Positions 183 through 30,258 of a stretch of 50,673 bases of DNA are shown one piece after another. Origin of the DNA: Ruminiclostridium sp. GTDB lineage: Bacteria; Bacillota; Clostridia; Oscillospirales; Ruminococcaceae. The stretch's first letter is position 1; each line of letters starts with the position of its first letter. The stretch spans positions 1-50,673 of the forward strand of contig JAGBMA010000174.1 in assembly GCA_017635095.1 (NCBI GenBank), read 5' to 3'. The position numbers were made by a program, and so were the translations under genes. The notes beneath the pieces were generated by a model. It was not told the origin of the DNA, ran no database searches, and saw only the letters and a program-made list of their open reading frames with translations.

Positions 183-3100
183 TTATTTCATTATCTCAGG
201 CAGCCGGTCATAATCCAGGTTTTCGACTGCCGATATCATATTCTTTACGCGCTCTTTTTCCGGTTCGGGGATACTGTAATCCCGGAAGCTTCCGACGATC
301 TCGTTGATATTGTCGAACTGGAATGCATCAAGCGCTTCTTTTATGAGCCCGTAGGCTTCTTTAAGCTCCTCCGCGGAGATCGGCGGCTTGTCGCCGTCAT
401 CTTCCTCCGGGGTCTCGCCGATAAGGGGTCGGAGCCGCTCACCCAGATCCCTGCATCTCGACAGAAGCTCGTCTATCTTCTCTCCGAGCTTTCCGGTGTC
501 CCCCTGCTTGCCCGCAGTCTCAAGCTCCTGGGCGAGCTCGCCGATATCGGCGGCTCCTATGATGCGGGAAGTGCTCTTCATAGCGTGTATCTTTATGGTT
601 GCGTTCCCGATATCGCCGGCCTGCCAGTACCGCTCGGTCTCGTCGGCGTGGTCCCCTATCATGCCCGCGTAGGTTTTAAGCGTTTCCATGTACGCTTCCT
701 CACCGCCGCAGTTCTTTATGCCCGCAGTCGTATCTATCTCCGGGATCTCCTCTATGAAAGGCGGCAGCCCGGACGCGGGGGCATTCTCCGGCTCCGCCGC
801 GCCGTCGTCATCGTCATATTTCAGCACCTTTTCCGCCGGCAGATACTCCGCAAGCATAGCTTCGAGCTTCGCGGAATCTATCGGCTTGGTCAGGTAATCG
901 TCAAAACCCGCCGCGAGATACTGCTCACGGGCACCGGATATCGCGTTCGCCGTGAGGCAGATCGTCGGGGTGGAAAGGTTCGGGTTCTTCTCCTGGGAAC
1001 GTATCTCATGGAGGGTCTCGATACCATCCTTTTCCGGCATCATATGGTCGAGGAAGATGATATCGTATTTCTTGTCGTAGGCAAGAGAAACTCCCTCGGC
1101 ACCGCTGTTCGCGGTGTCTATCTTCACGGCGGTCTGTTTGAGCAGGCTTCTGAACACCACAAGGTTCATGGGCGTATCATCGACCACAAGCACTTCCGCG
1201 GTGGGCGCGCGGAACTTTTCATGGTACTTCCTGCGCTTGCCGAGAGAAGCTTTGTAGGCTGCGGCATAATCGCCGAGTTCCTCCCACTTCACGACACGCT
1301 GTTTAAGCTCGAACGAGAACTTTGAACCGAGCCCGTAGATGCTCTCCGCCACGAGGGAAGAATCCATCATCTCAAGCAGCCGCTTCGTTATGCTCATTCC
1401 GAGACCAGTACCCTCGACGTTGCGGTTTCTCTCCTCGTCTATGCGGTCAAACTCGGAGAAGAGCTTGCGCATATCCTCTTTTCTGATGCCTATGCCCGTA
1501 TCCTTGACCATTACCCGGAGCATTATATGATCCGGCTCCTCGGGTATCGTTTCGTAGCGGATACCGAATGTGACCGTACCTGTCTCGGTGTACTTGACTG
1601 CATTCGTAAGTATATTCGTGATGACCTGCTTGATGCGGACTTCGTCGCCGTGGAGCTGTTTCGGGACTGTCTCGCTTATCTCAAGGTCAAGCTTGAGCCC
1701 CTTATCGTCGGCCTTGGTCTGTATCATATTCACAAGGTCGTTGATAACGCTCGACAGGTCATAATCCACCGGGATTATCTCCATCTTGCCCGCTTCGATC
1801 TTCGAGAAGTCGAGGATATCGTTCACAAGTCCCAGAAGCGTTGAACCCGCAGTTCTTATGCTTTCGGCATAGGTGAGGATATTGCGGTCGTCGCATTCGC
1901 GGAGTATCATCTCGTTCATGCCGAGAACGGCATTGATCGGCGTTCTGATCTCGTGGGACATATTGGAAAGGAATGAGGATTTCGCTTCGCTTGCAGCAAG
2001 GGCGCGCTCGGACATATCTATGAGCTTTTCACGCTCGGCCTTCTCGGAGTTGATATCCTCGGCAAGCCACAGCACATGGGTGACTTTACCGGCTCTGCCG
2101 CGCTGGGATACCATGAATCTTACTCTGACCCATTTATGTGTGCTCGTGAGCATCTCCAGCGCTATGGATTCGGTGTCGCGAAGGCGCCGGTCAAGGGTCG
2201 CGAAGTTTATGAAGCTCATGACATCGTCCATGGACGATTCGTCCGTCATCTGTCTCATGCTCGCTATCATAAGCTTCTGGGCATCGCCGCGCTGGTCCCT
2301 GATATGGCTGTTGACGATGCTGTTCTCGGATTTTATGACGCTGAAGCTGTCCTCGACAAGGTCGATATCGAAAACGGTCATGTAGATGTTTGAGATAGAT
2401 GCCATCTGAGTATTGAGGTTTCTTGCAGCCTCGGATATCTCGTCACGCTTGCGCTTCTCTTCATCTATGCTCTCAACGAGCCACAGAACGTGCTCGATCG
2501 CGCCGTCATCGCTGCACCTCGATACGACGAAACGGGCTCTGCACCAGATCTCGTCGTTGTTAAGGAACTCCTGGGTGATCGTATTTGTCTCAAGAAGCCT
2601 GTCATCAAGGGTGGAGAAGTCGATGAATTCACGCATAGCCTGTCTGGTGCTCCGGCTTGTGATCCTGTCAACTATGGCAAGAGCGGACGACTGGGCATTA
2701 TCCATATAATCGGTGTTGAGATCGGCAATATTGGCAGCGTGGGTCTTGACCTCGCGGAACCTGTCATTCTCAAGATCTATATCGTACATGGTGAAGTAGA
2801 TGTTTGCAACGGAGGACACCTGCTCATTCATCATCTTGACTGCGTCCATTACCGTATCACGTTCGCGCTTCTCGGCGTCGATATCCTCGATGAGATACAT
2901 TGCCGTGGAGACGCGTCCGTCGGCAAGCCTTCCGGACACTATGTAACGGGCTCTGCGCCATTTCTTGTCGGCGCTGAGAAACTCGGAAGTTATGGTGCTC
3001 CGGTCTTTGAGGCGGGAATCGAGCTTTGAGAAATCCACGAAATCGAGAATGCTTTCCCGGGTCGATTCGTCCGAAAAACGCGTCATTATCGCGCGGATCA

Positions 3101-4202
3101 TCTGCTGGCAGTTATTTCTTGTCTCGCCGATGATACGGGCGGCTTCCGCCTTGTTGTTCTGCACCTCGGTGAAAGTATCGGTCACGAAGTTTATCTCATG
3201 CATCGAGATGTATATTTCCGCAGTGGAAGAAAGCTGCTTGCTTATCTGCTCGGTCATGCGGCTGTGCCGTGCGGAGCTTCCCATTATCCCGGTCACCACA
3301 AGAACGATCGCGGCTGCTACCACAACGGTAAGGACAAGTATCAGGCTGAGCGAGCCGAATACGCTTGAGGCATTCTTTACCGAGATGCAGCGCCAGCCGT
3401 TCTGCATATCCGCGTAATAAGCTATGTAATGGGAATCGCCGAGAACAAATTCAAAATAGTTGTTTTCGACCGCTCTGACGTTTTCCATTATCATAGCGCC
3501 GAGAGTTCCGGTCTCGGAGGTATAGTCATTCCCTATCTCGGACTTGTCGGAATGCGCAACCACCACGCCGTGGTCGTTAAGTATCATTTCAAAGTCCGCA
3601 AGTCCGGACGTTACCGCATCTTCGGTGATCTGCTGGATCTGGTCGAGGGACACGTCCACGGAGATAACGCTCACGCCGTCGCAGAGGGTCTTGCCTATCG
3701 CAAGCATGGTGTTTCCGGTCTGGACATCGACATAGGGCTCAAGGATCGCTATTTCGCCTTTCTTCTCTAAGGCATTCGTGTACCACGGCCGCGCCTTTGC
3801 ATCATAATCCGCCGGCGGTTCCCAGTTCGTGCCGCTGAAAAACCTTCCGTTTATGTAGCCGTACAGACCGGTCATATTTTCAAGCACCGCGCTTCTGATA
3901 GCGGTGGACTGGCCGACAAGATAGTCCTGTATCTCGCTGTCCGACCTTTTTTCAGCTATCATACCGTCGAGAGTATATGCGGAAAGCTTTATGGAATCCA
4001 CATTGGTGGAAAGGTAATTGTCAAACTGCTCGGCAGCCTTTACAGATGACAGCTCGCCTTTCAGGATAATATTGTCCCGCTCTCTGAAATATACCATGTT
4101 ATAGTACATGATAACGATCCCGACAAAAAACACAATGACAAGTATGCTTACTAAAAGCGTGCGCACTGTGCCGTTACCAAGCAGTGCTTTTTTAATGTTC
4201 AT
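183..4202 (-). CDS. hybrid sensor histidine kinase with dCache sensor, receiver and Hpt domains
   Basis: Membrane sensor kinase of 1339 residues. In order: transmembrane helix (about 13-35), extracellular double Cache domain (about 36-285), second helix (about 283-308), three consecutive PAS-like repeats of about 125 residues starting near 325, 455 and 585, each ending in a W-x-R-x-R...ED/ES-IDxEK pattern, HisKA with MSHEIRTP (His750), HATPase with intact N, G1 and G2 boxes (DTGIGI, GTGLGM), receiver with Asp1052 (FLDHMMP) and a C-terminal Hpt domain with His1206 (IHAMKST). A full phosphorelay is therefore present in one chain. The Cache domain has Y133-x4-R138-P-W140-Y141 followed by PYVD, matching the spacing of the known amino-acid-binding dCache motif, so an amino-acid ligand is inferred. 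AAGGAG lies 8 bases before the ATG. It follows its paralogue by 42 bases and ends at a repeat element. No DNA-binding output regulator is adjacent. Confidence 0.95.
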   Translation of the reverse strand: MNIKKALLGNGTVRTLLVSILVIVFFVGIVIMYYNMVYFRERDNIILKGELSSVKAAEQFDNYLSTNVDSIKLSAYTLDGMIAEKRSDSEIQDYLVGQSTAIRSAVLENMTGLYGYINGRFFSGTNWEPPADYDAKARPWYTNALEKKGEIAILEPYVDVQTGNTMLAIGKTLCDGVSVISVDVSLDQIQQITEDAVTSGLADFEMILNDHGVVVAHSDKSEIGNDYTSETGTLGAMIMENVRAVENNYFEFVLGDSHYIAYYADMQNGWRCISVKNASSVFGSLSLILVLTVVVAAAIVLVVTGIMGSSARHSRMTEQISKQLSSTAEIYISMHEINFVTDTFTEVQNNKAEAARIIGETRNNCQQMIRAIMTRFSDESTRESILDFVDFSKLDSRLKDRSTITSEFLSADKKWRRARYIVSGRLADGRVSTAMYLIEDIDAEKRERDTVMDAVKMMNEQVSSVANIYFTMYDIDLENDRFREVKTHAANIADLNTDYMDNAQSSALAIVDRITSRSTRQAMREFIDFSTLDDRLLETNTITQEFLNNDEIWCRARFVVSRCSDDGAIEHVLWLVESIDEEKRKRDEISEAARNLNTQMASISNIYMTVFDIDLVEDSFSVIKSENSIVNSHIRDQRGDAQKLMIASMRQMTDESSMDDVMSFINFATLDRRLRDTESIALEMLTSTHKWVRVRFMVSQRGRAGKVTHVLWLAEDINSEKAEREKLIDMSERALAASEAKSSFLSNMSHEIRTPINAVLGMNEMILRECDDRNILTYAESIRTAGSTLLGLVNDILDFSKIEAGKMEIIPVDYDLSSVINDLVNMIQTKADDKGLKLDLEISETVPKQLHGDEVRIKQVITNILTNAVKYTETGTVTFGIRYETIPEEPDHIMLRVMVKDTGIGIRKEDMRKLFSEFDRIDEERNRNVEGTGLGMSITKRLLEMMDSSLVAESIYGLGSKFSFELKQRVVKWEELGDYAAAYKASLGKRRKYHEKFRAPTAEVLVVDDTPMNLVVFRSLLKQTAVKIDTANSGAEGVSLAYDKKYDIIFLDHMMPEKDGIETLHEIRSQEKNPNLSTPTICLTANAISGAREQYLAAGFDDYLTKPIDSAKLEAMLAEYLPAEKVLKYDDDDGAAEPENAPASGLPPFIEEIPEIDTTAGIKNCGGEEAYMETLKTYAGMIGDHADETERYWQAGDIGNATIKIHAMKSTSRIIGAADIGELAQELETAGKQGDTGKLGEKIDELLSRCRDLGERLRPLIGETPEEDDGDKPPISAEELKEAYGLIKEALDAFQFDNINEIVGSFRDYSIPEPEKERVKNMISAVENLDYDRLPEIMK

Positions 4203-4244
4203 TCGTTCTTCTCCTTATTCCCCCGGGAAATTTTCTGCAAAAGA

Positions 4245-7145
4245 TCACCCGTTTACCGTCCCCTGTTTCAGTTCAAACGAAAACTTTGAGCCAAGCTCAT
4301 ATACGCTTTCGACTTCAAGATCAGAATCCATCATACGAAGCAGTTTTTTGGTGATACCGGCGCCGATGCCGTTTCCGCCGGCGCTGTCGTCAGGACCGGA
4401 ATAATACTGCTCGATCTCCTCGCGCTTCATGCCGATACCGGTGTCCTTGACCACGACGCTGAGCATGACGCTTCCCGGCTCGTTCTCTGCCTCCTCACAG
4501 CCGACAGAGAGTGTCACGGTCCCCTTCCGGGTGTACTTGACCGCGTTCGTGAGAAGGTTCATCACAATCTGTCTGAACCGATCCTTATCTCCGTACAGCT
4601 TCCCCGGCACATTGCCGCTTATCTCGGTAACGAACCGCAGTCCCTTTTCGGCGGCTTTCATCTGTATTATATCCTTCATCTCGCCGATAACTTCGTTAAG
4701 ATCATATTCCGCGGGGACGATCTTCAGCTTTCCCGCTTCTATTGCCGAATAGTCCAGGATATCGTTGATGATGCCGAGGAGCTCTGCGCCGTCGCGGCGT
4801 ATTTTCTCTGAGCACTCGATGATATGCTCGTCCCTGCTGTCGCGGCGTATTATCTCGTTGGTATTGAGCACGGAATCGAGAGGAGTGCGTATCTCCTGGG
4901 ACATATTGGACAGGAACGACGATTTCGCTTCGTTGGCTGCTATCGCGCGCTCGGACATATCTCTGAGCTTATCACGCTGCTGTTTTTCGGAGTCTATATC
5001 CTCGGTCAGCCAGAGGACATGGGTGGGACGTCCGTTTTCGCTGCGGCGCGAGGCGACGAATCTGCCGCGTCTCCACTGTTTGTCCCTGTTCATGAACTCT
5101 ATCGCTATCGTGTCCCTGTTGCGGAGCCTCTTGTCGAGGGTATCCACATTGAGGAATCTCAGTACGCGGGCTCGGGCGGAATCGTCCGTTACCGTTGCCA
5201 TGATCCGGTTCAGCGTCTCACGGGCGTTTTCATGCACGGCGGAAAGATCTTCGCCCACAAGGCGGATGTCCGATTTCATTTCCGTGAACGTATCGTTGTC
5301 GATGTCGATATCGTGGGCGGTAAGATAGATATTTGCAATGGACGAGATCTGGTAATTGAGCTCGCGTGCCGTATTTGCAAGTTTTTCACGCGTTCTTCTC
5401 TCCGCGTCTATGTTTTCAACTGCCCATATAACGTGGGAGATCTCTCCGTCATCGGTACGCTGGGAGAGGATAAATCTTCCTCTGCACCAGCTTCCGCGGG
5501 AATTCAGGAACTCCACTGTAGCCGTTCCCGTTTCAGCCACATTTTTCCTGATACTATCGTATTCTATGAATTCAAGGACGTCGTCGAGACAGCTCTTGTC
5601 CGTGAGCTTGGTCATGGCGGAGCGGAGCACCTGCTGTGCGTTGTGCACATCATTGCCTATAGCGTTCTGGACAACGGAATCGTTCATCTTGATGATCGTG
5701 AACGTGTCGTTTATTATGTCAAGATCGTGAACAGAGGTGTAGATGTTGGCGATAGAACCGAGCTGGGAACTGAGCTGCTTTGCGGTATCGTGCATCTTAT
5801 CGCTGTCACGCCTCTCAGCGTCGATATCCTCTATGAGGTACATCGCGCCGGCGACCCGTCCGTCCGCAAGTCTTCCCGATACGATATAGCGCGCCCTGCG
5901 CCATTTGTTATCCGCGCTCAGGAACTCGCAGGTTATGGTGTTGCGGTCTTTAAGGCGTGCATTGAGCTTGGAAAAATCAACAAAGTCGAGGATACTGCTC
6001 CGGGTAGAATCATCGGAAAACTTCGTCATTATCGCGCGGATCATCTGCTGGCAGTTGTTCCGGGTCTCACCGATCATCTTCGACGCTTCTTCCTTGTTGT
6101 TGCGCACCTCGATGAACGTATCCGTGACGAAGTTTATCTCATACAGCGATATGTAGATATCCGCGGTCGATGAGAGCTGCTTGCTGAGGCGCTCGGCTAT
6201 GATGCTGCGGTTCGCAGAGCTTATCGTCATTCCCGCGATCATTCCCGCGATCACTATTACCACAACGATAGTGAGCAATAATATAACGGTGATCGACGCG
6301 AACGTTCTCGTGGTGTCTTTTACGGAAACGCAGATCCAGTCGTTATGTATCTTCGTGGAGTAAACGATATAATGCAAAGCGCTGTGTGATATCTCAAAAT
6401 AGTTTTCCCTGGACGAACGGAGCTCCTTGAAGATCTCCGCGCCGAGGGACCCGTTCTCTTCACCGAATGACTTTCCGACTTCCGCCACGTCCGAATGCGC
6501 TATAACGGAGCCCGAAGCGTCGATGATAAATTCTGTATCCGACATTCCGGAACCTACCGCCTGCTCGGTTATTTCCTGTATCCTTTCAAGCGTCATATCG
6601 AATGCAACAACGCTCTTTCCGTCCACGAGCGTCTTTGCGAGAGCCATCATCATATTCCCGGTCTGTGCGTCAAGGTACGGCTCTATTATCACGATCTCTC
6701 CGGCGTTCGCCATAGCCTTTATATACCACGGACGTTCCGTTGCCACAAATCCGTCAGGGGGCCTCCAGTTCGAGCCCGACACGAACTTGCCGTTTATATA
6801 GCCGTACATTCCGGTCGTATTCTCAAAAACCGTGTTCATTATCGCGTTGGACTGGCCCACAAGGTAATCGAGTATCTCGGCGTCGCTCTTGTTATCCGCA
6901 AGCATTCCGTCGAGCGTGTAAGAGGTCATCTTTAAAGCATCAAGGCTCGTGGAGAGATATTCGTTGAACTCTGTTGCAGTCTGGACAGCCGATGTCTCGC
7001 CGTTCTTGATTATGAGCTCACGTTCCCTTGTATAGACCATGTTGTAATAAAACAATACCACCCCGACAAAGAACATGAGAATAAAAATGCTCACCAGCAG
7101 GGTTCTCATGCCTGATCGTCCGAGACTTTTTATTTTCTCTGTCAT
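4245..7145 (-). CDS. hybrid-kinase paralogue with phospho-acceptor His replaced by Gln (probable pseudokinase)
   Basis: 966 residues from the ATG at 7145, chosen over an upstream ATG because GGAGG lies 5 bases before it. It aligns without net gaps to the following kinase through residue 750: N-terminal helix, dCache domain with R138-P-W-Y, second helix, three PAS-like repeats, HisKA and HATPase. The DNA reads ATG TCC CAG GAG, giving MSQEIRTP, so residue 750 is Gln, not His. The G1 box (DTGIGM) remains, but the F-box region and G2 (GNGIGAG) are drifted, and the protein stops after HATPase with no receiver or Hpt. The Tyr at 133 of the ligand motif is Phe. Autophosphorylation at the usual site is impossible. 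A role as partner or decoy for the neighbouring hybrid kinase, perhaps by heterodimerising, is inference. Confidence 0.93.
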   Translation of the reverse strand: MTEKIKSLGRSGMRTLLVSIFILMFFVGVVLFYYNMVYTRERELIIKNGETSAVQTATEFNEYLSTSLDALKMTSYTLDGMLADNKSDAEILDYLVGQSNAIMNTVFENTTGMYGYINGKFVSGSNWRPPDGFVATERPWYIKAMANAGEIVIIEPYLDAQTGNMMMALAKTLVDGKSVVAFDMTLERIQEITEQAVGSGMSDTEFIIDASGSVIAHSDVAEVGKSFGEENGSLGAEIFKELRSSRENYFEISHSALHYIVYSTKIHNDWICVSVKDTTRTFASITVILLLTIVVVIVIAGMIAGMTISSANRSIIAERLSKQLSSTADIYISLYEINFVTDTFIEVRNNKEEASKMIGETRNNCQQMIRAIMTKFSDDSTRSSILDFVDFSKLNARLKDRNTITCEFLSADNKWRRARYIVSGRLADGRVAGAMYLIEDIDAERRDSDKMHDTAKQLSSQLGSIANIYTSVHDLDIINDTFTIIKMNDSVVQNAIGNDVHNAQQVLRSAMTKLTDKSCLDDVLEFIEYDSIRKNVAETGTATVEFLNSRGSWCRGRFILSQRTDDGEISHVIWAVENIDAERRTREKLANTARELNYQISSIANIYLTAHDIDIDNDTFTEMKSDIRLVGEDLSAVHENARETLNRIMATVTDDSARARVLRFLNVDTLDKRLRNRDTIAIEFMNRDKQWRRGRFVASRRSENGRPTHVLWLTEDIDSEKQQRDKLRDMSERAIAANEAKSSFLSNMSQEIRTPLDSVLNTNEIIRRDSRDEHIIECSEKIRRDGAELLGIINDILDYSAIEAGKLKIVPAEYDLNEVIGEMKDIIQMKAAEKGLRFVTEISGNVPGKLYGDKDRFRQIVMNLLTNAVKYTRKGTVTLSVGCEEAENEPGSVMLSVVVKDTGIGMKREEIEQYYSGPDDSAGGNGIGAGITKKLLRMMDSDLEVESVYELGSKFSFELKQGTVNG

Positions 7146-7183
7146 AATGACCTCCGCATTTATCTTCCAAAATACGCACAAAG

Positions 7184-7215
7184 CCTGCAAGTACCGATAA
7201 ACCGGCGCTTACAGG
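7184..7215 (-). promoter_or_regulatory. stem-loop over the stop codon of the 31-residue ORF
   Basis: CCTGTAA pairs with TTGCAGG and encloses a GCCG/CGGT inner stem. The hairpin covers the stop codon (7209-7211) of the small ORF and lies about 30 bases before the kinase ribosome site. A ribosome finishing the small ORF would melt it. Without a T run it is not an intrinsic terminator; coupling of translation is inferred. Confidence 0.5.
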
Positions 7216-7304
7216 CATAAATATCTGTTATCGGAGACGGGGCACAGCAAAAGCACGATGCCGGCGCTGCTGCAATTCCCGGTTTTAAAGCGAGTACCAA
7301 GCAT
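7209..7304 (-). CDS. small ORF of 31 residues leading the sensor-kinase operon
   Basis: ATG at 7304 with an AGGGGG purine block 7 bases upstream, TAA at 7211, inside the 339-base gap before the kinase operon and about 50 bases downstream of its -10 box. The peptide has a basic start (MLGTRFKTGNC), a hydrophobic centre (AGIVLLL) and three cysteines (residues 11, 21 and 30). I do not recognise it. It could be an exported or modified peptide, a leader peptide controlling the kinases, or chance. The good ribosome site, the position and the hairpin on its stop codon favour a real, probably regulatory, ORF. Confidence 0.5.
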   Translation of the reverse strand: MLGTRFKTGNCSSAGIVLLLCPVSDNRYLCL

Positions 7305-7357
7305 TTTATCCGCCCCCTTCAATCTGTTTCGGTTCTCCGGAATTTATTATCCTAACA

Positions 7358-7386
7358 ATTATAACATATTCCGCAAAAAAAGTAAA
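7358..7386 (-). promoter_or_regulatory. promoter of the sensor-kinase operon
   Basis: On the minus strand TTTACT (7386-7381), a 17-base spacer and TATAAT (7363-7358). Transcription would start near 7350 and give a leader of about 205 bases holding the 31-residue ORF. Confidence 0.55.
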
Positions 7387-7422
7387 GCACTTGGAAACGT
7401 TTTGTTGTAAAACTTTAGTAAC

Positions 7423-7462
7423 AAAAAAACACGGACGGTACGGAAATCACCGTATCGTCCGT
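7423..7462 (-). terminator. intrinsic terminator of the cupin operon
   Basis: ACGGACG-A-TACGG pairs with CCGTA-C-CGTCCGT on the minus strand (7462-7431) and is followed by seven T (7429-7423). It ends the TetR operon just before the kinase promoter. Confidence 0.85.
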
Positions 7463-7484
7463 ATGTTTCTGCCATGTGCGCCGG

Positions 7485-8240
7485 TTATGCAAGCTTACCG
7501 TAATCCTCGTCCGCGACCGGTTCGCACCACTCGGTAGATGCGTTCTCTCCGGGCACCTCGAACGCAAGGTGGCTGAACCAGGAGTCGGGAGCCGCACCGT
7601 GCCAGTGCTTCACATTCGCCGGTATGTTTATGACCGTCCCGGGCACGAGCTCCTGAGCGGGCTTGCCCCATTCCTGATAATAGCCCCTGCCGCCGACGCA
7701 TATGAGCATCTGACCTCCGGCAGCGTCGGAATGGTGTATATGCCAGTTGTTGCGGCAGGCGGGCTCGAAAGTGACATTGAACACCGGGACCTGCTTATCG
7801 GAAAGCGGTGCGAGATAGCTCTGACCGACAAAGAACTGACCGTAGGGATTGGGTTCGCCTATGGGGAAGAAGATCGTGTTCTGATACCTGTCCTTTTCGG
7901 TATTTTCGGGCTGAGGGTCATTCCAGACTTCCTTGGCGAGCCGGAATACTGCCCAGCCTTTCGGCCAGCCGCAGTACATCGTCGCGTGTGTTATTATTGC
8001 AGCGATCTCTTCCTTTGTAACGCCGTGAGCCTTTGCGTTCTGCAGGTGGTAAGAAAGGGAGCTGTCGGTGATGCCGGAAGCCATGAGCGACACGACCGTT
8101 ATGATGCACTTAGTCTTTGTGTCTATCGCTTCTTCGTTCCATACTTCGCCGAACAGCACGTCGTCGTTGAGATGCGCGAACATGGGCGCAAAATCGCCGA
8201 GCTGCTGTCTTCCCGCGGTCTGTGTTATCTTTTCTTTCAT
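7485..8240 (-). CDS. carboxymuconolactone decarboxylase-like domain fused to a cupin
   Basis: 251 residues from the ATG at 8240 (GGAGG 8 bases upstream; an earlier ATG lacks a ribosome site). The N-terminal half is an AhpD/carboxymuconolactone decarboxylase-type helical domain ending in THATMYCGWPKGW. The C-terminal half is a small cupin barrel with metal-ligand type motifs WHIHH and HWHG. Such fusions are common in gut Firmicutes and Bacteroidetes and are usually annotated as carboxymuconolactone decarboxylase family proteins; the true substrate is not known. Only one Cys sits in the AhpD-like motif, so a CxxC peroxidase role is unlikely. It is the last gene of the TetR-led operon, 55 bases after the monooxygenase-like gene, and ends at a strong terminator. 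A role in dealing with a small electrophile or oxidant is inferred. Confidence 0.88.
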   Translation of the reverse strand: MKEKITQTAGRQQLGDFAPMFAHLNDDVLFGEVWNEEAIDTKTKCIITVVSLMASGITDSSLSYHLQNAKAHGVTKEEIAAIITHATMYCGWPKGWAVFRLAKEVWNDPQPENTEKDRYQNTIFFPIGEPNPYGQFFVGQSYLAPLSDKQVPVFNVTFEPACRNNWHIHHSDAAGGQMLICVGGRGYYQEWGKPAQELVPGTVINIPANVKHWHGAAPDSWFSHLAFEVPGENASTEWCEPVADEDYGKLA

Positions 8241-8295
8241 TGCGTTGTCCTCCGTTATTGCATTTCCCGGGCTTTTACACAAGTCCGGGGATATT

Positions 8296-8931
8296 TCATA
8301 TCCGACTCTCCGATCTCATGAAAAGCTCAAGTTCTTTATGAAACAGTTCAAATGCTGAATTTTCATCATCGTTCATTTCAGTCAGATACCTGTCCCACAA
8401 AACAGAGCCGGTAACATTGTATTTCGCGGCAAGCCATTCGTTGAACCTGTCATATTCCGATTTGCCGTAATCAATATTCTCGCTCCTTGCGAGCTCCTGA
8501 TACCCCTCCAAAAAACAGCGGAGCCCGATCAGCGATCTTTCACCTATGTACATTCCGGGTTTTTCCATGACCTTCATCATCACGTCCAGAATACCGGGAC
8601 TTTCCGATACGATGAACTTTCTGTCGGATCCCGGGATACCGCCGTCCGCGACGTAACGTTCGACCCGCATTTTAAGGTCGTATTTCTGCCGCAGTACGAC
8701 GATCGTGTTCATCATCGGGGACGCGTGGTGCAGATCTATCGCAGCCTGATCCTCCCATGAATCTATAAGCAGAACGGTTTCCGGGGAATCAAGGGGCTGA
8801 AAATATTCATACCTCAGATTTCCCTTTTCACTGCGGATCTTATCTACCGTCCCACTTGCGACCATTTCCTCCGCGAATTTTCTTGCGTTTCCGTTTTCTC
8901 CGCTGTAATAAATATTTACTGTTATACTCAT
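8296..8931 (-). CDS. antibiotic-biosynthesis-monooxygenase-like protein with extra C-terminal domain
   Basis: 211 residues. Residues 1-97 look like a ferredoxin-like ABM/YgiN fold (VNIYYSGENGNARKFAEE, then YEYFQPLDSPETVLLIDSW and HHASPMM), a class of cofactor-free quinol or small-aromatic monooxygenases. Residues 98-211 are a separate module containing a KPGMYIGERSLIGLRCFLEG stretch, seen in unrelated bacterial proteins of unknown role. The ATG overlaps the TetR stop by 4 bases (ATGA), so the two are translationally coupled. Context with a CMD-cupin protein and a TetR repressor suggests a detoxification unit. The function of the second half is unknown. Confidence 0.75.
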   Translation of the reverse strand: MSITVNIYYSGENGNARKFAEEMVASGTVDKIRSEKGNLRYEYFQPLDSPETVLLIDSWEDQAAIDLHHASPMMNTIVVLRQKYDLKMRVERYVADGGIPGSDRKFIVSESPGILDVMMKVMEKPGMYIGERSLIGLRCFLEGYQELARSENIDYGKSEYDRFNEWLAAKYNVTGSVLWDRYLTEMNDDENSAFELFHKELELFMRSESRI

Positions 8932-9554
8932 TTTTCCACCAACATCTTTCTTACGCAGTTATATATCATCTTATAGACCGAACACTTCGTGAATTTCACG
9001 CCCGCTTCTTCCATTGCCGCAAGCTGTTTTTCGGTGGTCACGGCATACGGATAGATACCGAACATAAACGGGAAAAACACGAATATAAAGCGTTCCCGCG
9101 CGTCCTCGTCCATTTCCGGACAGAACTTCGTCAGGCATTTTCTCACCGCGTCAAGGGAACCGCCGTAGGATCTCTTGAACTCCGTCAGGCGCTCGGGGCG
9201 GGAATTTTCCTCCATGTCGTAATGGTTCATCGACAGCAGCTTCAGGAGCCGGGGGCGGTTTTCGAGGGAGTGGGCTATCGCTCCCGCAAGCTCGTCGGCG
9301 GTAAGGGTATCGTTGTCGTGTATGACAGCCAGCAGGTCGGCGTTCCAGAGATCATACTCACGCTGCATAAGCGCAAGGAATATCTCTTCTTTCGTCCGGA
9401 AATAGTTATAGATCGACGGGCGGGAAAACGACGTTTCCCGGCTTATATCCCCAAGCGTGATATCCCGGAAATTCATTGTGCCGTAGAGCTTCTCACAGGC
9501 GTTTATTATCTCGTCTTTGCGCGAATTGGTAAGTTCTCTCGATCCTTTTGGCAT
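8928..9554 (-). CDS. TetR/AcrR family transcriptional regulator
   Basis: 208 residues from the ATG at 9554, set by GGAGGA 4 bases upstream; longer starts have no ribosome site. The N-terminal helix-turn-helix (about 10-55) has the usual TetR pattern: INACEKLY, then ITLGDISRETSFSRPSIYNYF and RTKEEIFLALM. The C-terminal ligand domain has no family match I can name. It is first in an operon with the ABM-like and CMD-cupin genes, so it most likely represses its own promoter at 9680-9707. The divergent promoter at 9866 may also be under its control, but I found no clear palindrome to prove it. Confidence 0.9.
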   Translation of the reverse strand: MPKGSRELTNSRKDEIINACEKLYGTMNFRDITLGDISRETSFSRPSIYNYFRTKEEIFLALMQREYDLWNADLLAVIHDNDTLTADELAGAIAHSLENRPRLLKLLSMNHYDMEENSRPERLTEFKRSYGGSLDAVRKCLTKFCPEMDEDARERFIFVFFPFMFGIYPYAVTTEKQLAAMEEAGVKFTKCSVYKMIYNCVRKMLVEK

Positions 9555-9679
9555 GATCTCCTCCTGTTTTACGGCGCCGGCAGAATGCGGCGGGACGGGG
9601 CGGGCAAAAATCTCTGACACATCGTTGTATCAGGCGCAGGCATTTCGGTCGATATGCCCGCGATATACCCACAAATACT

Positions 9680-9707
9680 ATTATACACGATTCTGACGAA
9701 ATGTCAA
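9680..9707 (-). promoter_or_regulatory. promoter of the TetR operon
   Basis: Minus strand TTGACA (9707-9702), 16-base spacer, TATAAT (9685-9680). The leader to the TetR start is about 120 bases. Confidence 0.75.
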
Positions 9708-9865
9708 TACCGCAGCGGGATTTTTCCGGTACATACAGTCCGCAGTTCCGCGTGATCGCAGGACAGAACGGGGAGCAGGACAGATAAAATGCACCAAATT
9801 TTATAACGACAGACGCCCCGGAGACAGAATTTTGCACGAAAATCAGTTGTACAGCGATCGGGGTC

Positions 9866-9895
9866 TTGATTTTACCTCAGGATATATGGTATAAT
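9866..9895 (+). promoter_or_regulatory. promoter of the DUF2798-like gene
   Basis: TTGATT (9866-9871), 18-base spacer, TATAAT (9890-9895). The start site would be near 9902, leaving a leader of about 125 bases. Confidence 0.7.
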
Positions 9896-9926
9896 GTGAA
9901 GAAAATAAGAAAAACAACGCAACGAC

Positions 9927-9999
9927 ACACGCAGCAGGGTCCCGCCCCGCATAAGTCTGATCACGGTAACGCGGACAGCTTATGACGCTGCGTGTTTTT
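9927..9999 (+). promoter_or_regulatory. structured leader with intrinsic terminator before the DUF2798-like gene
   Basis: ACACGCAGC (9927-9935) pairs perfectly with GCTGCGTGT (9987-9995), followed at once by five T (9995-9999). The 51-base interior forms a second stem, CATAAG with CTTATG, closed further by TCTG/CAG. There is no gene between the promoter at 9866 and this structure, so it would stop transcription early unless switched. The layout is that of a riboswitch or attenuator; I could not match it to a known class. Confidence 0.55.
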
Positions 10000-10025
10000 G
10001 TCTGCAAAAGAAAGGAACAGAAGAT

Positions 10026-10604
10026 ATGCCACAGAATCAGTTTCAGAGAATGATGTTCGCACTTATGACGGTCATCATCACCGTCCATGCCTATGTGTTC
10101 TACAGCCTTTATGTGATAAACGGCGCAACGCTTATGTCGGTAACGGGGAAAGATACCGTGATAGGCGCGATAGACGCTATGGGCGGAGTTTATATGTTCG
10201 GTACGAACCTGCCGATATGGGCTGTTGTCGCAGTCGAATTCGTTTTCGCCTACACCCTTGAGATATTCGTCGGGAGCCCCCTTTCATTCAGGCTCGCAAG
10301 CAAGGTCTTCGACCCTGCAAAGACCCACCCCGTTTTGTTCGAGACCGCGATAATCTGCGCCACAGTCGGGATAATGTGCCCCGCCATGAGCTTTATCGCA
10401 GCGTTCCTCTACTATCCCTATTACGCGGGATTTTCGGTCGTAACGCTTCTCGCCAACTGGCTCAGGCTCGTATGCTTCAATTTCCCGTTCGCGTTCTTCT
10501 CACAGCTTTTCTTCATTCAGCCGCTTATCCGTACCCTCTTCAAGCTCATTTTCGTCAGAAAAAACACCGGGGTCAGCAACACAGCCGCTCAGTCCGAACA
10601 GTGA
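10026..10604 (+). CDS. DUF2798-like four-helix membrane protein
   Basis: 192 residues, largely hydrophobic, with about four membrane helices arranged as two similar halves: F-x-R-MMFALMTVIITVHAY near the start, and IICATVGIMCPAMSFIAAF in the second half. This resembles proteins with DUF2798 repeats, of unknown function. A purine-rich AAAGGAAC lies about 8 bases before the ATG. It stands alone between a terminator-containing leader and its own terminator and is divergent from the TetR operon. Transport or membrane sensing of a small molecule is possible but not shown. Confidence 0.75.
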   Translation: MPQNQFQRMMFALMTVIITVHAYVFYSLYVINGATLMSVTGKDTVIGAIDAMGGVYMFGTNLPIWAVVAVEFVFAYTLEIFVGSPLSFRLASKVFDPAKTHPVLFETAIICATVGIMCPAMSFIAAFLYYPYYAGFSVVTLLANWLRLVCFNFPFAFFSQLFFIQPLIRTLFKLIFVRKNTGVSNTAAQSEQ

Positions 10605-10623
10605 TACCCGCGCATTGTAATAT

Positions 10624-10652
10624 CCCGGTCACCGATACCGGGGTATTTTTTT
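10624..10652 (+). terminator. intrinsic terminator after the DUF2798-like gene
   Basis: CCCGGT (10624-10629) pairs with ACCGGG (10637-10642) over a 7-base loop, followed by seven T (10646-10652). Confidence 0.85.
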
Positions 10653-10737
10653 ATCCCGTTCGTGAGGTACGCAGAAAAAGACGGAACGTGCAGAAAATTT
10701 CGGAAAAACCGCAACGCACAACCCGTTTTTGATATAA

Positions 10738-10771
10738 GGGAACCTCTAAAAACCCGATTTGAGAGAAAAAG
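10738..10771 (+). repeat. dispersed repeat terminal module, copy R2
   Basis: GGGAACCTCTAAAAACCC then GATTTGAGAGAAAAAG: the terminal module of the repeat family without its hairpin body. It differs from R1 and R5 by one base (CCCG for CCCA). It lies between two terminators, preceded by ATAA as in copies R1 and R4. Confidence 0.8.
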
Positions 10772-10784
10772 CAGCCGAAGGATA

Positions 10785-10820
10785 CAAAAAACCGTGTGCG
10801 GAGAACCGTACACGGATTTT
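10785..10820. terminator. bidirectional intrinsic terminator
   Basis: CCGTGT-G-CGG pairs with CCG-T-ACACGG (10792-10815). Six A precede it and five T follow it on the plus strand, so it can end transcripts from both sides. Its main client is the lipoprotein gene ending at 10850. Confidence 0.8.
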
Positions 10821-10849
10821 TGCTTTTCCGGACGCCGGAGGGGGCACTT

Positions 10850-12241
10850 TTATCCGACTGTCTCCGGCATAAGATCGGGGTGCATGAGTCTGTTGTGATC
10901 CGTGAAGTCGCGGATCGCTTTCCGGGTGTTGTTTTCGGTCACAACGCTTCCGTCTTTCCCGCTTATACAGGGACTCCATTCAAGAAGCTCGCCGCTGCTG
11001 TCGGTGAGCCGCACTATAACATCGGGCATTATCTCGCTGCGGTTGCATTTGAGCAGTACCGGGCGCAGGTCATCGTCCCGGCTGTACAGAACGTCGCCCT
11101 CTTTCGCTTCACCGGTGGTTTCATCGTACACAAGCTCCGATATCGTGATACTGCCGTGGACATCGGACGGGAGAAGCAGATAAAGCTCCTGACCGCCGCC
11201 GGAGGTAACGAAGCTGTCGGAGGGGAAGCTCCTGAGATACCGGACTTTCCTGTCCATATCCGTGATCTCGAACATACGGAGATAGAGGTCGCGGAAGTTA
11301 TCGAAATTATCCATGTCCGGTTCGACATAGCCTATGTACCAGAAGCCGAGCATCTCCCCGTTCTCGCGCAGGGTGCCGAGCTCCTTTATCGCGGGCATGG
11401 AACCGAACGTGTTCGGGTACGGCATTTCTGCCCACTCGCCGTCGAACATGGCAAGATCTATCGGGTTGCCGTCGCTGTCATTGCCCGTCGCGGTGTATCT
11501 GTCAAGAAAATACCATGCAACGATAGACCGTGCATCGCTTTCTTCAGCAGGATCGCGCAGGATAACGGATATCTTGTCGAACTCGAACGCGGTCTCGACT
11601 GTGGGATCCGCGATGCTGTACTGACCCATTCCGTAGAGAAACTTCGACATAAGCCCGAGGGAGTAGTTGTCGTAGAAGCTGAATTCGTCCGCAGAAGAGA
11701 GATACTCCCATTCCTCGGTCGTATCGGAACCGTCCCACTGCACCATGAAACGATCGTCTTCCGGGGCTCCGTCAACGAGCTCCATATAGCTGTACGAGCC
11801 GACTCCGCCCATTTCAAAGCGGAACCTTTCCGGCGAGCCGTCTTCCCTTTCATAGCCGAAGCCTACGCCGATACCCATGCTCTGTGACATAGTCGAGCCG
11901 CTCCCGTCCTCACGGAAACAGTAGTATGTTTCATCATAGTCCGCGCTTCCCCGCTCGCCTCTTGCGATCCACACGCCTGTCCTGAACGGGTACTTTTCCT
12001 GTTCGCCGGTGCTTTCCGACGCAGCTGCAGTCTGCCCGGCTGTCGTTGTTTCTGCGGCAGTCGTTGTCTGCTCCACGGTGGTGGTGGTCTGCTCTGCGGC
12101 GGCTGCGGTCTGCTCCGCAGCGGTCATTGTCTGCTCCACGGTGGTGGTTTGTGCAGGCGAATTGCCCTGCGCACAGCCGGAGACTGCGATCACGGCTGCG
12201 CACAAAAGCGCTCCGGTACCGAATTTAATTGCATTTTTCAT
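10850..12241 (-). CDS. secreted lipoprotein of unknown function
   Basis: 463 residues from the ATG at 12241 (AAGGAG 9 bases upstream). A signal peptide ends in a lipobox V-S-G-C23, so the mature protein is anchored in the outer leaflet of the cytoplasmic membrane. Residues 32-80 are a Thr/Ala/Glu/Gln-rich linker built of repeated VEQT and AEQT units, encoded by a degenerate tandem repeat at about 12010-12150. The remaining 380 residues are a folded acidic domain rich in aromatic residues and Asp, with no motif I recognise. It starts 20 bases after the zinc-ribbon gene and is co-transcribed with it. Both are predicted envelope proteins, so a shared surface function is likely but unknown. Confidence 0.85.
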   Translation of the reverse strand: MKNAIKFGTGALLCAAVIAVSGCAQGNSPAQTTTVEQTMTAAEQTAAAAEQTTTTVEQTTTAAETTTAGQTAAASESTGEQEKYPFRTGVWIARGERGSADYDETYYCFREDGSGSTMSQSMGIGVGFGYEREDGSPERFRFEMGGVGSYSYMELVDGAPEDDRFMVQWDGSDTTEEWEYLSSADEFSFYDNYSLGLMSKFLYGMGQYSIADPTVETAFEFDKISVILRDPAEESDARSIVAWYFLDRYTATGNDSDGNPIDLAMFDGEWAEMPYPNTFGSMPAIKELGTLRENGEMLGFWYIGYVEPDMDNFDNFRDLYLRMFEITDMDRKVRYLRSFPSDSFVTSGGGQELYLLLPSDVHGSITISELVYDETTGEAKEGDVLYSRDDDLRPVLLKCNRSEIMPDVIVRLTDSSGELLEWSPCISGKDGSVVTENNTRKAIRDFTDHNRLMHPDLMPETVG

Positions 12242-12261
12242 AGGATCATGCTCCTTTCGCA

Positions 12262-13218
12262 TCATATCCTTATCCCGTCATCTTTGGTGTCGTTTCTCAC
12301 GGTGGTGAAGTCGCTGAGCAGCCAGTCGAAGCTGCCGGAAGTTACCGTACTTCCGCAGTATCCGCACTTGCCGGAGCTTGCTATATCGAGGGGCGCTCCG
12401 CAGTTCGGACAGTATTTCGGCTGATCGGGTCTTCGTTCCACGCTTCTCATGAACTTCATCAGATAGCGCATTTTCCACATGGTGGTCTTGTCGCCCCTGA
12501 TGATGCTTCCGGTGTTGTCATCGACCTGATAGTCAATATACTGGGTGTTCAGATATACCGTGATGTATTCGTACTCGCGGTCACGCACATAGCTCGTGAG
12601 GTACACGTTCCGGAAAGTGTAGTTCTCGTAATGATATGTAACGTGCTGGTCGATCTTTGCCTGCACCTGACGCAGGGTGGTGCTGTAGAGGTTGTTGTGC
12701 ATCAGACCGCGCACAGGTTCAAGGTCTTTCGCGCACCATGCGTCCTGCACAGCGATAAAGGTATTCTTCGCGAATGTGAGCATTTCTTCGCTGCTGAACG
12801 AGGGGTCGAATCTCTGCACCGCATCACGTATATCAACATTGCGGTTAGGCACTGTGACCTGTCGGGAACGGGGTGCCGTCAGCTTTTTTTTGGACGATTT
12901 CAGGGGCTTGTTTGCCCAGATTCCTACGATTATGAGCGCTGCTGCCACAACAGCTACTGTGATGAGGGTCTCCTCCCATGTCATATCGCTGCTGCCGCCG
13001 GAGCTTCCGTAATAATGATCATCGGCATCGTAGCTGTTTGAATAGCCTCCACCGTAACTGTAATCATCATCGTCATCGTAATCCCACGAGCTTCCGCCGT
13101 AATCGTAGCCACCGCCACCGTAGTCATAGTCATTGGCATCAAAAGCGGAAGCGCCGGCACAGAGCAGCACAGCTGTCAGCAGTAGAGACGATACCGCAGT
13201 CAACGGTCGTTTTTTCAT
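12262..13218 (-). CDS. membrane protein with Tim44-like domain and C-terminal zinc ribbon
   Basis: 318 residues. Signal peptide (1-25), an extracellular Gly/Tyr/Asp-rich low-complexity stretch (about 26-80, repeated YDYGG and DDDDDYSYGG units), one membrane helix (about 86-107), a cytoplasmic Tim44-like domain (about 130-260: FDPSFSSEEMLTFAKNTF, VQDAWCAKDLEPVR) and a zinc ribbon C270-P-N-C273 with C285-G-Y-C288. Tim44-like domains with zinc ribbons occur in many Firmicutes proteins of uncharacterised role. AAAGGA lies 6 bases before the ATG. It leads an operon with the lipoprotein gene. Confidence 0.82.
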   Translation of the reverse strand: MKKRPLTAVSSLLLTAVLLCAGASAFDANDYDYGGGGYDYGGSSWDYDDDDDYSYGGGYSNSYDADDHYYGSSGGSSDMTWEETLITVAVVAAALIIVGIWANKPLKSSKKKLTAPRSRQVTVPNRNVDIRDAVQRFDPSFSSEEMLTFAKNTFIAVQDAWCAKDLEPVRGLMHNNLYSTTLRQVQAKIDQHVTYHYENYTFRNVYLTSYVRDREYEYITVYLNTQYIDYQVDDNTGSIIRGDKTTMWKMRYLMKFMRSVERRPDQPKYCPNCGAPLDIASSGKCGYCGSTVTSGSFDWLLSDFTTVRNDTKDDGIRI

Positions 13219-13255
13219 TTTCTGTCCTTTTCCGTAAATAGTATAACTATATATT

Positions 13256-13283
13256 ATTATATCACATGATCGTGATATATCAA
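13256..13283 (-). promoter_or_regulatory. promoter with palindromic operator for the Tim44-like operon
   Basis: Minus strand TTGATA (13283-13278), 16-base spacer, TATAAT (13261-13256). The spacer is almost filled by a perfect 7-base inverted repeat, ATATCAC (13259-13265) and GTGATAT (13272-13278), 6 bases apart, overlapping the -10 box. This is a good site for a dimeric repressor; the protein is not identified. Confidence 0.65.
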
Positions 13284-13363
13284 GCCCCTGAATGTGACGG
13301 GTCTTACTTCCGATCAGGCAGTTCGGCCGGCGTACAGCGCCGTATCATGCGCTGAAACAGCGC

Positions 13364-15043
13364 TCAGGCTTTTATTGTTTTTCCCACATTTATGAAGTGG
13401 TCTGCGACCCTTTCCGCGTCGGACGAAAGCGAAAGGTACTGAGCTCCGACATCGGCGGTACATACGCCCTCGCTGAGGCGCCGGATATGGTTATCCGCCA
13501 TTTCGGAGGTGATGATATCGACCTGGTCTTCCGCTTCAAGAGCAAGTCTGAGAGCATTCGTATCGCCGCTGATGTAGGCTCTGACGATATGCCCGAACAG
13601 CTCCTCTATAAGCTCGCGCACTGCTTTTATCTCGCTTATCGCCTCATCGGAGAACTTCTCGTCCGCCGCTTTCAGGTGCTCCGCGTACTCGACGATATTC
13701 TCCGCATAGTCGCCGACTCGTTCAAGATCGGTAACTGCATGAAAAGCGGTAGAGATATACTTCACATCGCGGGCACTGAGCTGGGTGTTTGAAAGCTTTA
13801 CAAGGAAATCAACTATCTTGTGATTAAGGAAATTGAGTTCTTCCTCGTTGGCGCGGAACTGGTCGATATCGGTGAAATCGAGTGTGCAGATGATATGGCA
13901 GGAAAGCGAGAAATTCTGCATCGCTATCTCCGCCATATTGACTATCTCGTTTTTCGCCTGCTGGACCGCGACAGGCGGGGTCGCAAGCATATGGTCGTCT
14001 ATATAATGCAGTTTCGGAGCGTTCCTGTCTTCCTGCACTATCTCTCTTTCGTCGGGAATAATTACCGTCACCGCACGCACCAGCATATCCGTGAGGGGCA
14101 GCACCAGTACCACCGTCAGCACGTTGAACACCGTATGGAACATAGCGAGCTGGGTCTGCGGAGCGCCGGGGAAAAGACTCTCGAACATAGTCCCGAAGTT
14201 CACCGTGCCGCCGGACAGCAGATCTGTAAGCCCGCCTACTATCGTGAATACCACGACGCCGCTGATGTTGAAGATAAGGTGGATAAGCGCAGTTCTTTTC
14301 GCGTTCTTTCCGCTGGTAAGACCTGCCATAAGCGCAACTACGCAGGAACCGATGTTTGAGCCCATCGTCAGGTAAATGCCCTGCTCAAGGGTGATGAGCC
14401 CGGAAACCACCATAGTTATCGCTACCGATGTCATAACGGAAGAGCTCTGGACTATCGCGGTAAGGATCGCGCCTATCACTATCAGGAGCACTATGTTGTC
14501 TATTCCGGCGAGGAAGTTTTTTACGCTGTCGAGCCGCGCGAAACTGTCCATAGAGCCGCTCATCATTTCAAGACCCACAAAAAGCATACCGAACCCGGCG
14601 AGGATGCCGCCGCTTTTCTTTACGGTATCGCTTTTGGCAAATGTCACGATAAATGCGCCGACACCCGCCAGCGCGGAGAAGATCACCGTAGTTGAGATCA
14701 TATCCCCGCCGAACATTCCGAGTGCTACTATCTGTCCGGTTATAGTCGTACCGATGTTTGCGCCGTAAACGATGGTCGCGGCCTGCGTGAGCGTCATTAT
14801 CCCCGCGTTTACGAAACCGATGACCATTACGGTCGTTGCGCCGGAGCTCTGGATCGCGGCAGTTCCTACCGTTCCTATGCCGACGCCGAGCAGCTTGCTC
14901 CCGGAGGCTTTCGAGAAAAGCGACTTGAGTTTGCTGCTGCTGAGCGATTCGAGATTTGCGCTCATCATGGAGCAGGCGATAAGGAATATACCTATGCCCG
15001 CCGCGAGCTGCAGTATTGCTGTCAAAACGTCTGTTGTACTCAT
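13364..15043 (-). CDS. Na/Pi cotransporter family protein with PhoU-like tail
   Basis: 559 residues. The N-terminal 320 residues are the SLC34/NptA-type transporter with the characteristic inverted QSSGATT (QSSGATTVMVIG) and QSSS (QSSSVMTSVAI) repeats and about nine membrane helices. Residues about 345-555 form a PhoU-like helical domain (ATPPVAVQQAKNEIVNMAE, SDAERVADHFINVGKTI). The protein imports inorganic phosphate with sodium, and the PhoU part probably regulates flux. AAGGAC lies 5 bases before the ATG. It follows the exported phosphatase by 96 bases on the same strand, consistent with release of phosphate outside followed by uptake. Confidence 0.93.
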   Translation of the reverse strand: MSTTDVLTAILQLAAGIGIFLIACSMMSANLESLSSSKLKSLFSKASGSKLLGVGIGTVGTAAIQSSGATTVMVIGFVNAGIMTLTQAATIVYGANIGTTITGQIVALGMFGGDMISTTVIFSALAGVGAFIVTFAKSDTVKKSGGILAGFGMLFVGLEMMSGSMDSFARLDSVKNFLAGIDNIVLLIVIGAILTAIVQSSSVMTSVAITMVVSGLITLEQGIYLTMGSNIGSCVVALMAGLTSGKNAKRTALIHLIFNISGVVVFTIVGGLTDLLSGGTVNFGTMFESLFPGAPQTQLAMFHTVFNVLTVVLVLPLTDMLVRAVTVIIPDEREIVQEDRNAPKLHYIDDHMLATPPVAVQQAKNEIVNMAEIAMQNFSLSCHIICTLDFTDIDQFRANEEELNFLNHKIVDFLVKLSNTQLSARDVKYISTAFHAVTDLERVGDYAENIVEYAEHLKAADEKFSDEAISEIKAVRELIEELFGHIVRAYISGDTNALRLALEAEDQVDIITSEMADNHIRRLSEGVCTADVGAQYLSLSSDAERVADHFINVGKTIKA

Positions 15044-29898: not shown

Positions 29899-29938
29899 GT
29901 TCTGAAACCTCCCGGAACAGTATTATTTCAATGGCTAT

Positions 29939-29967
29939 ATAATATCACGAGCTTTTGACAATGTCAA
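29939..29967 (-). promoter_or_regulatory. promoter of the glutamate synthase operon
   Basis: Minus strand TTGACA (29967-29962), 17-base spacer, TATTAT (29944-29939). The -35 lies in a perfect palindrome, TTGACA-A-TGTCAA (29955-29967), which could be a regulator site. Confidence 0.75.
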
Positions 29968-30088
29968 CCGTTTTTGCAAGATTTATTTTTGATTCCTGCA
30001 TATTTTGTAGAAAGGCAACATTTTGAACAAGTGCGGGGCTGTTTTTTGCATAATTATCACAAATTTAATTCATTGTGTTGCTTATTTT

Positions 30089-30142
30089 CTCGGAAGTGCG
30101 TTCGGCGCATACCGCCGTATCAATGCATTCCGAGCTGTTTTT
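30089..30142 (+). terminator. orphan terminator-like hairpin between the divergent nitrogen operons
   Basis: CTCGGAA (30089-30095) pairs with TTCCGAG (30128-30134). TGC/GCA and CGGCG/CGCCG continue the stem inside, and five T follow (30138-30142). No gene lies upstream on this strand, so it would terminate a short RNA from the 29.97-30.09 region. I found no convincing promoter for one. Confidence 0.45.
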
Positions 30143-30211
30143 GCTATATTATAAAGGAATAACCCAGAGAAATATTTTTGCAAGTTTTCAGAATTTTTAT
30201 TGCAAAAACTA

Positions 30212-30240
30212 TTGACAAACCGAAAAGTCTGTGCTATAAT
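30212..30240 (+). promoter_or_regulatory. consensus promoter of the glutamine synthetase operon
   Basis: TTGACA (30212-30217), 17-base spacer, TATAAT (30235-30240): a perfect match to both hexamers. Start expected near 30247. Confidence 0.9.
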
Positions 30241-30258
30241 ACGAATTGTGGAACGGCA

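Follow-up and report, generated by a model that had tools for sequence, protein, structure and literature searches.

A clade of histidine kinase paralogs without the acceptor histidine, mostly encoded beside an intact hybrid kinase, in Ruminiclostridium

What might a bacterium keep a histidine kinase for once its histidine is gone? In HisKA kinases, a chain with neither the acceptor histidine nor a receiver domain carries no phosphate by the usual route, and a gene for one such chain lies on a 50,673-nucleotide (nt) stretch of Ruminiclostridium sp. DNA (Ruminococcaceae; GenBank assembly GCA_017635095.1, contig JAGBMA010000174.1, positions 1 to 50,673 of the forward strand), which in its whole length we call the window. 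An earlier reading of the window's sequence, the original prediction, held that this 966-residue protein has glutamine at residue 750 where the product of the next gene has histidine at the same residue number, and the codons, CAG and CAC, bear this out. Its claim that the protein lacks receiver and Hpt domains is also true: Pfam places both in the neighboring hybrid kinase only. The pseudokinase itself matches HisKA (PF00512) with 47 bits and HATPase_c (PF02518) with 66.8 bits, each above the curated cut-off, has no Pfam match to Response_reg or Hpt, and continues for only 7 residues after the motif of its catalytic and ATP-binding (CA) domain. Having lost both the histidine and the receiver, the chain is unable to carry phosphate by the known route. 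We argue below that the gene has probably been conserved for a regulatory subunit and is not a broken one.

We searched 71 genomes of the genus, the window's own included (E <= 1e-90, at most 11 candidates scored per genome), and found matches in at least 16 of them. In the family, at least 6 of 396 genomes, again counting its own, matched at the same threshold, with two candidates scored per genome and misses likely; a match was present in one of the four genomes of G364's genus and in two of the 11 of G358's. Open frames from both searches that match the pseudokinase and carry a transmitter core were aligned in 55 rows, leaving out rows with an incomplete core, the fragment L109, and the duplicate loci L106, L102, L103 and L104 (the same loci as L062, L063, L064 and L065, respectively). 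The acceptor histidine is kept in 46 rows and missing in nine, and seven of the nine, from five genomes, also have no receiver: the window protein, L062, L063, L064, L031, L065 and L075. These seven, two of them in the window's own genome and five spread over four congeneric genomes (5 of 71 genomes in all), group as a single clade in the transmitter-core tree, with a bootstrap of 93 and an SH-like approximate likelihood ratio test (SH-aLRT) value of 95, slightly below the program's starred level. A single origin of the His-less clade is likely on this tree, not proven, because the deep branches of the tree built from the cytoplasmic repeats are unresolved and the His-less label there requires more than one change.

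Across the clade, the loss of histidine is conserved and the glutamine itself is not. The acceptor position holds Gln in the window protein and L062, Asn in L063 and L031, Arg in L064, and Asp in L065 and L075; aligning homologs, the check proposed with the original prediction, thus finds the Gln in the nearest ortholog only, and we rejected a conserved Gln with a special role because the residue varies within the clade. Close homologs with His, the result named in advance as counting against a pseudokinase, were sought and not found: the nearest three (78, 73 and 69% identity) and the other three clade members all lack it. The window's own genome has 34 HisKA matches, 33 of them over the Pfam cut-off, and the H box was read in all 34; His is kept in 31 of the 33. 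The two without it are the window gene and its paralog L031 on contig C143 (8233-11133, minus strand, 966 amino acids), which reads MTNEISAP, with Asn at the acceptor site, and also stops behind the CA domain, with no receiver. A genome may have fewer active kinases than a count of its HisKA domains suggests.

The two further His-less rows are L073 (Arg; receiver by Pfam) and L108 (Glu; receiver-like tail), and a receiver-less protein of another genus, L107_8613, keeps its His, has lost the RTP motif and has partly lost the N box. The 41 rows set apart as intact all have His followed by Glu or Asp, and all have Thr at +4. Active-site damage is present in all eight rows that stop no more than 18 residues after the CA motif; our script did not find this motif in eight further rows, of which one is truncated where its stretch ends and the others run at least 100 residues past the core. 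Among positions conserved in intact kinases, one of six in the H box is kept in at least six of the seven clade members, against 65 of 111 in the rest of the core (p 0.08), a difference that is only suggestive of a loss concentrated on the H box.

Is the gene, then, decaying? For the window gene and L062, a codon model gives a nonsynonymous to synonymous rate ratio (omega) of 0.077 over the whole gene, with omega = 1 rejected (2dlnL, twice the log-likelihood difference, 636); by part, omega is 0.12 for the sensor, 0.05 for the repeats, 0.015 for the dimerization and histidine phosphotransfer (DHp) domain and 0.10 for the CA domain. L063 and L064 give 0.114 overall; their CA value was left unused because of runaway synonymous divergence (dS), as were the 'CA' rows of hybrid-hybrid comparisons, which include receiver columns. 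In all three pseudokinase comparisons, omega is at most 0.18 in every domain, and these values are rough, because dS exceeds 1 and is near saturation throughout, but far below 1. The frame is open in all six full-length clade members. Together, the loss of His common to a clade in five genomes and the purifying selection on it reject a strain mutation or decay, and they support well the original description of the protein as a sensory pseudokinase.

The shared residues of the transmitter core point the same way. DHp is the best-kept part between the window protein and L062 (95–96% identity, Gln included); in more distant comparisons, at 75–76%, it is no longer the best kept. DHp also carries clade-specific changes, M762T in six of the seven members and M765I and Y778C in all seven, and Thr762, Ile765 and Cys778 occur in none or one of 40 intact kinases. 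In the CA domain, Leu864, which differs from the usual residue, is present in at least six of seven members and in eight of the 40 intact kinases. Judged from the alignment, this suggests a new role that has been retained, and not decay. A duplicate on its way to loss would explain why the acceptor motif and the F and G2 boxes have changed in several different ways, and a relative, from genome G459, of a different degenerate gene (L107) was reported with an internal TGA; set against the open frames, the low omega values and the clade-specific conserved residues, and contradicted by the codon-model result, this reading is barely credible.

The ATP site presents a mixed picture. All seven members have the N-box Asn as well as the Asp and Gly of G1. 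The original prediction had both the F and the G2 box of the window protein drifted; the first part stood, since the F-box Phe is Tyr, and the second did not, since the G2 box retains its glycine spacing (GNGIG). Across the clade, the F-box Phe is replaced in the window protein, L062, L063 and L064 and kept in L031, L065 and L075, while the G2 glycines are broken in L064, L031, L065 and L075, with their spacing kept in the window protein, L062 and L063; each member is thus altered in one box or the other, and none has the full set. The ATP lid is shortened by 7 residues in the window protein, 7 in L106, 10 in L102 and 7 in L103, and by one in L104. RetS chains are among the best matches of the transmitter core in the PDB. 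The state of the boxes and the lid bears on the possibility that the pseudokinase is a kinase donor, binding ATP and phosphorylating the hybrid's His in trans through its CA domain while being itself unchargeable. The N-box and G1 residues, together with a G2 spacing kept in three members and an F-box Phe kept in three others, speak for such a donor, but with the Phe replaced and the lid shortened in the window protein, L062, L063 and L064, the G2 glycines lost in four members and no full box set in any, we hold it to be improbable.

It is very unlikely that some other residue takes the phosphate, or that the protein is a dedicated phosphatase. A second His in the DHp (DEHIIEC/DGHILEC) is common to the window protein, L062, L063 and L064 and missing in L031 and L065; since it is present in only four of the six members inspected, we rejected it as an alternative acceptor. 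The HExxT motif has a role in phosphatase activity, and its E and T are retained by the window protein and L062; the two positions read G,T in L063, E,S in L064, E,A in L031, R,D in L065 and R,T in L075, and a dedicated phosphatase was rejected because the motif is not kept across the clade.

Features of the window discussed in the text, with positions, strand and the basis of each assignment
Feature	Position	Strand	Basis
Histidine kinase paralog without acceptor His or receiver (pseudokinase), 966 amino acids	4245..7145	-	Open reading frame, Pfam, codon model
N-terminal part with dCache-type sensor (residues 1-308)	6222..7145	-	Alignment to PctA
Cytoplasmic repeat 1 (309-449), 79% identical to repeat 1 of the hybrid	5799..6221	-	Identity comparison
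Cytoplasmic repeat 2 (450-588), subtype that the genus search found in His-less proteins only	5382..5798	-	Identity comparison and search
Cytoplasmic repeat 3 (589-725)	4971..5381	-	Comparison
DHp/HisKA region (726-812), 95% identical to the L062 ortholog, His absent	4710..4970	-	Identity and codon model
Acceptor-site codon CAG (Gln750, NMSQEIRTP) replacing His	4896..4898	-	Sequence reading
CA/HATPase_c (813-961), with N box and G1 retained, F-box Phe substituted and the lid shortened by 7 residues	4263..4709	-	Alignment
Downstream hybrid kinase, 1339 amino acids: HisKA with His750, HATPase_c, receiver, Hpt	183..4202	-	Pfam
Acceptor codon CAC (His750, NMSHEIRTP) of the hybrid kinase	1953..1955	-	Sequence reading
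Promoter-like site TTTACT-17-TATAAT, TG before the -10, upstream of the pseudokinase gene	7358..7386	-	Pattern match only

We next consider what the protein, built as a membrane receptor, might sense. Its first 308 residues match dCache_1 with 42.1 bits, just under the cut-off of 45. The amino-acid motif described for PctA consists of Y121, R126, W128, Y129, Y144 and D173 (PMC10104139), and the pseudokinase has F133, R138, W140, Y141, Y157 and D183 at these positions, the first being Phe and not Tyr. R138, W140, Y157 and D183 are identical in all nine pseudokinases and hybrids aligned; because motif residues are common to both kinds of protein, both chains may sense amino acids. The protein at L096 (2686-4578, minus strand) is a relative over the sensor and repeat 1 but carries a GGDEF domain (Pfam) at its end in place of a kinase, so the input module is common to different output types. 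The L031 pseudokinase has a different sensor (16% identical), and the N-terminus of its hybrid looks multi-spanning by eye.

The cytoplasmic region that had been described as PAS-like consists instead of three tandem repeats of ~139 amino acids each, unrecognized by Pfam; the PAS naming was rejected because no Pfam PAS match appears up to an E of 10. Repeat 1 is 79–85% identical between neighboring pseudokinase and hybrid in three of five pairs. Repeat 2 behaves differently: between neighbors it is 34–38% identical in four pairs and 28% in the C143 pair, and among five pseudokinases it is 76–87% identical, L065 included though its other domains stand at 38–54%. This subtype (at least 77% identity) occurs five times in the 71 genus genomes, always in a His-less, receiver-less protein, with the next match at 47%. 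It marks five of the seven clade members and is missing from two, whose best matches are 40% (C143) and 37% (L075). At E <= 1e-15, repeat 2 was found in one of 394 genomes of the order, the window's own.

Gene order provides a further clue to function. The hybrid kinase does lie 42 nt downstream, as originally stated, adjacent and on the same strand, and the order of pseudokinase then intact hybrid recurs in five of the seven clade loci, the two genes being 42, 36 and 24 nt apart in three of them and overlapping by 4 nt in the other two; at L031 the intact hybrid follows 24 nt on (4873-8208, minus strand). A promoter-like site lies ahead of the window pseudokinase, as does a terminator-like stem (7453-7435; pattern match only), and with these the pair looks like an operon led by the pseudokinase. 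The L103 pair (6668-13668) adjoins genes that are 84–96% identical to window positions 28786-35635; because this site differs from the window pair's own place (183-7145), the pair cassette has moved.

Three features of these loci, namely retained DHp, sensor and ATP-site residues, gene order, and a repeat 2 coupled to the lost histidine, lead us to a sensing subunit that would be read by a partner, and we lean modestly toward the pseudo-histidine kinase being a second sensory subunit of the neighboring hybrid; the dimerization, the sign of the effect and the ligand are what we infer. The hybrid next door would be the simplest partner. The pseudokinase would be made together with the hybrid of the next gene and would join it through a mixed DHp four-helix bundle; its ligand state, set by the sensor and the special repeat 2, would then feed the hybrid's balance of kinase and phosphatase activity, with the phosphate flow His-Asp-His confined to the hybrid chain. 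Whether the pseudokinase activates, inhibits or titrates would depend on whether the hybrid autophosphorylates in cis or in trans.

If in trans, the pseudokinase could act as a titrating, dominant-negative partner: heterodimers would be dead, and active hybrid homodimers would become fewer depending on the pseudokinase's ligand. The shorter lid and replaced F-box Phe, which would probably make its CA domain a poor trans kinase, fit such a role, and the two 4-nt overlaps suggest coupled synthesis. In its pure form, however, titration does not require the sensor, repeat 2 and the ATP-site residues to be under strong constraint, and yet all three are kept; we consider it unlikely. The dead transmitter could also form homodimers whose target is a response regulator or the receiver of the hybrid, and sense phosphorylated receivers in this way; DivL dimerizes and, without acting as a kinase, binds DivK~P (PMC4211667). 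A protein of 272–288 amino acids with one recognized receiver domain comes after the hybrid in L031, L102, L103 and L104, and might serve as such a target; in the window, no gene for one was seen to start in the 182 bases that remain between the hybrid and the contig end. DivL, as described in that paper, retains the other histidine kinase boxes, which these proteins do not all do, and the motif around their acceptor drifts; we consider a DivL-like sensor of receivers quite unlikely.

Several observations weigh against a second sensory subunit of the hybrid. L062/L106, the nearest ortholog, has no adjacent hybrid, and L075 has none downstream, with a contig end upstream. Repeat 1 is only 19% (C143) and 49% (L065) identical between neighbors in two pairs, and for that reason it is not a general interface. 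The repeat tree places the window hybrid with L069, the core tree places it with L072, and in neither does it join the hybrids of L063 and L064, so that, as far as these trees indicate, the neighboring hybrids do not appear to be clearly co-inherited with the pseudokinases. In Corynebacterium glutamicum, two-hybrid assays found ChrS heterodimers for the native kinases and none for the truncated pseudokinase (PMC9491836).

A broader reading can be offered only tentatively: this lineage of rumen-type Clostridia may have evolved receptor kinases with built-in asymmetry, in which the hybrid would carry all the phosphate and an uncharged chain would bind ATP and have a private input repeat. As part of this doubtful but possible reading, the 76–87% identity of repeat 2, next to 38–54% in other domains, would reflect selection against separating the input module from the dead transmitter, with other domains being exchanged around them.

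Several proteins of this kind are known. In Caulobacter, DivL is a pseudo-histidine kinase that regulates the hybrid kinase CckA and keeps its transmitter without kinase activity (PMC4211667). Like DivL, the window protein is shaped as a histidine kinase and has no acceptor His; unlike DivL, in which, according to that paper, the acceptor is Tyr (Ala in one homolog) and the N, G1, F and G2 boxes are kept, the clade varies at the acceptor (Q, N, R, D), is altered in the F or G2 box in each member, and mostly has its gene beside that of a paralogous hybrid. By the features that define the DivL family, a Tyr acceptor with the other boxes intact, the window protein falls outside it, with Gln and an altered F box and lid. 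FasB and FasC of group A Streptococcus, encoded in one locus, were reported to form heterodimers and not homodimers in two-hybrid assays, and FasC was proposed to be a pseudokinase (PMC12675982). In that account the His of FasC is essential and its kinase domain dispensable, whereas the window protein has lost its His and kept N-box and G1 residues, and its neighbor is a hybrid kinase with an Hpt domain.

RcsD is a membrane protein resembling histidine kinases, without the conserved His, that works with the hybrid RcsC (PMC3762810). RcsD, as that source describes it, participates in the relay and has an Hpt domain, whereas Pfam matches neither an Hpt nor a receiver domain in the window protein; RcsD was also reported to be labeled from ATP (PMC3762810), which cautions against calling such proteins dead. 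In Pseudomonas, RetS and GacS heterodimerize and modulate each other (review PMC12189002), RetS being a hybrid histidine kinase whose loss of an acceptor His goes unmentioned in the portion of that review available. A ChrS pseudokinase variant of C. glutamicum, a disabled kinase, alters the output of a paralogous kinase (PMC9491836); as presented there, it evolved in the laboratory through a CA-domain frameshift and is not a clade found in nature. By analogy, the window protein may resemble such heterodimeric pseudokinase pairs in the way it works.

In the open-licence literature we found no description of a clade of this sort in rumen Clostridia. The pseudo-histidine kinases that we found described, DivL, RcsD and FasC, are described singly; here, one clade within a genus has several substitutions at one site. 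With intact paralogs as controls and a usual neighboring partner, it lets one ask why a dead transmitter is kept: as subunit, as titrator or as a sensor of regulators.

The pseudokinase gene starts with ATG at 7145, with GGAGG in front, and stops at 4247-4245 on the minus strand; an alternative in-frame TTG lies farther upstream, at 7190. We favor the ATG because of its ribosome-binding site and because it aligns with the ATG starts of the L106 and L102 orthologs. A leader of ~210 nt (7146-7357) separates the promoter-like site from this start. Within the window, leader included, no Rfam family reached its cut-off, and no tRNA genes were found.

The survey also turned up relatives of other kinds. 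At L105 (7001-7906), a fragment from a metagenome-assembled genome belongs to a further ortholog, its sensor 75% identical; it is cut before the acceptor site and was not counted. At L107 (8619-11534 and 5234-8155), a damaged receiver-less kinase has as neighbors a hybrid kinase and a solitary receiver gene. At L069, an open reading frame of 737 amino acids (5834-8044, minus strand), with a serine recombinase-like start as judged by eye, lies upstream of a hybrid kinase gene belonging to this family. The converse lesion is seen in L076 (1368-4340, minus strand), L084 (1863-4850), L085 (2199-5213) and L087 (2271-5300), where His is kept, the next Glu is Asn, G1 and/or G2 are damaged and the receiver is kept; each of these four genes is preceded by an open reading frame of ~450–505 amino acids with a similar N-terminus.

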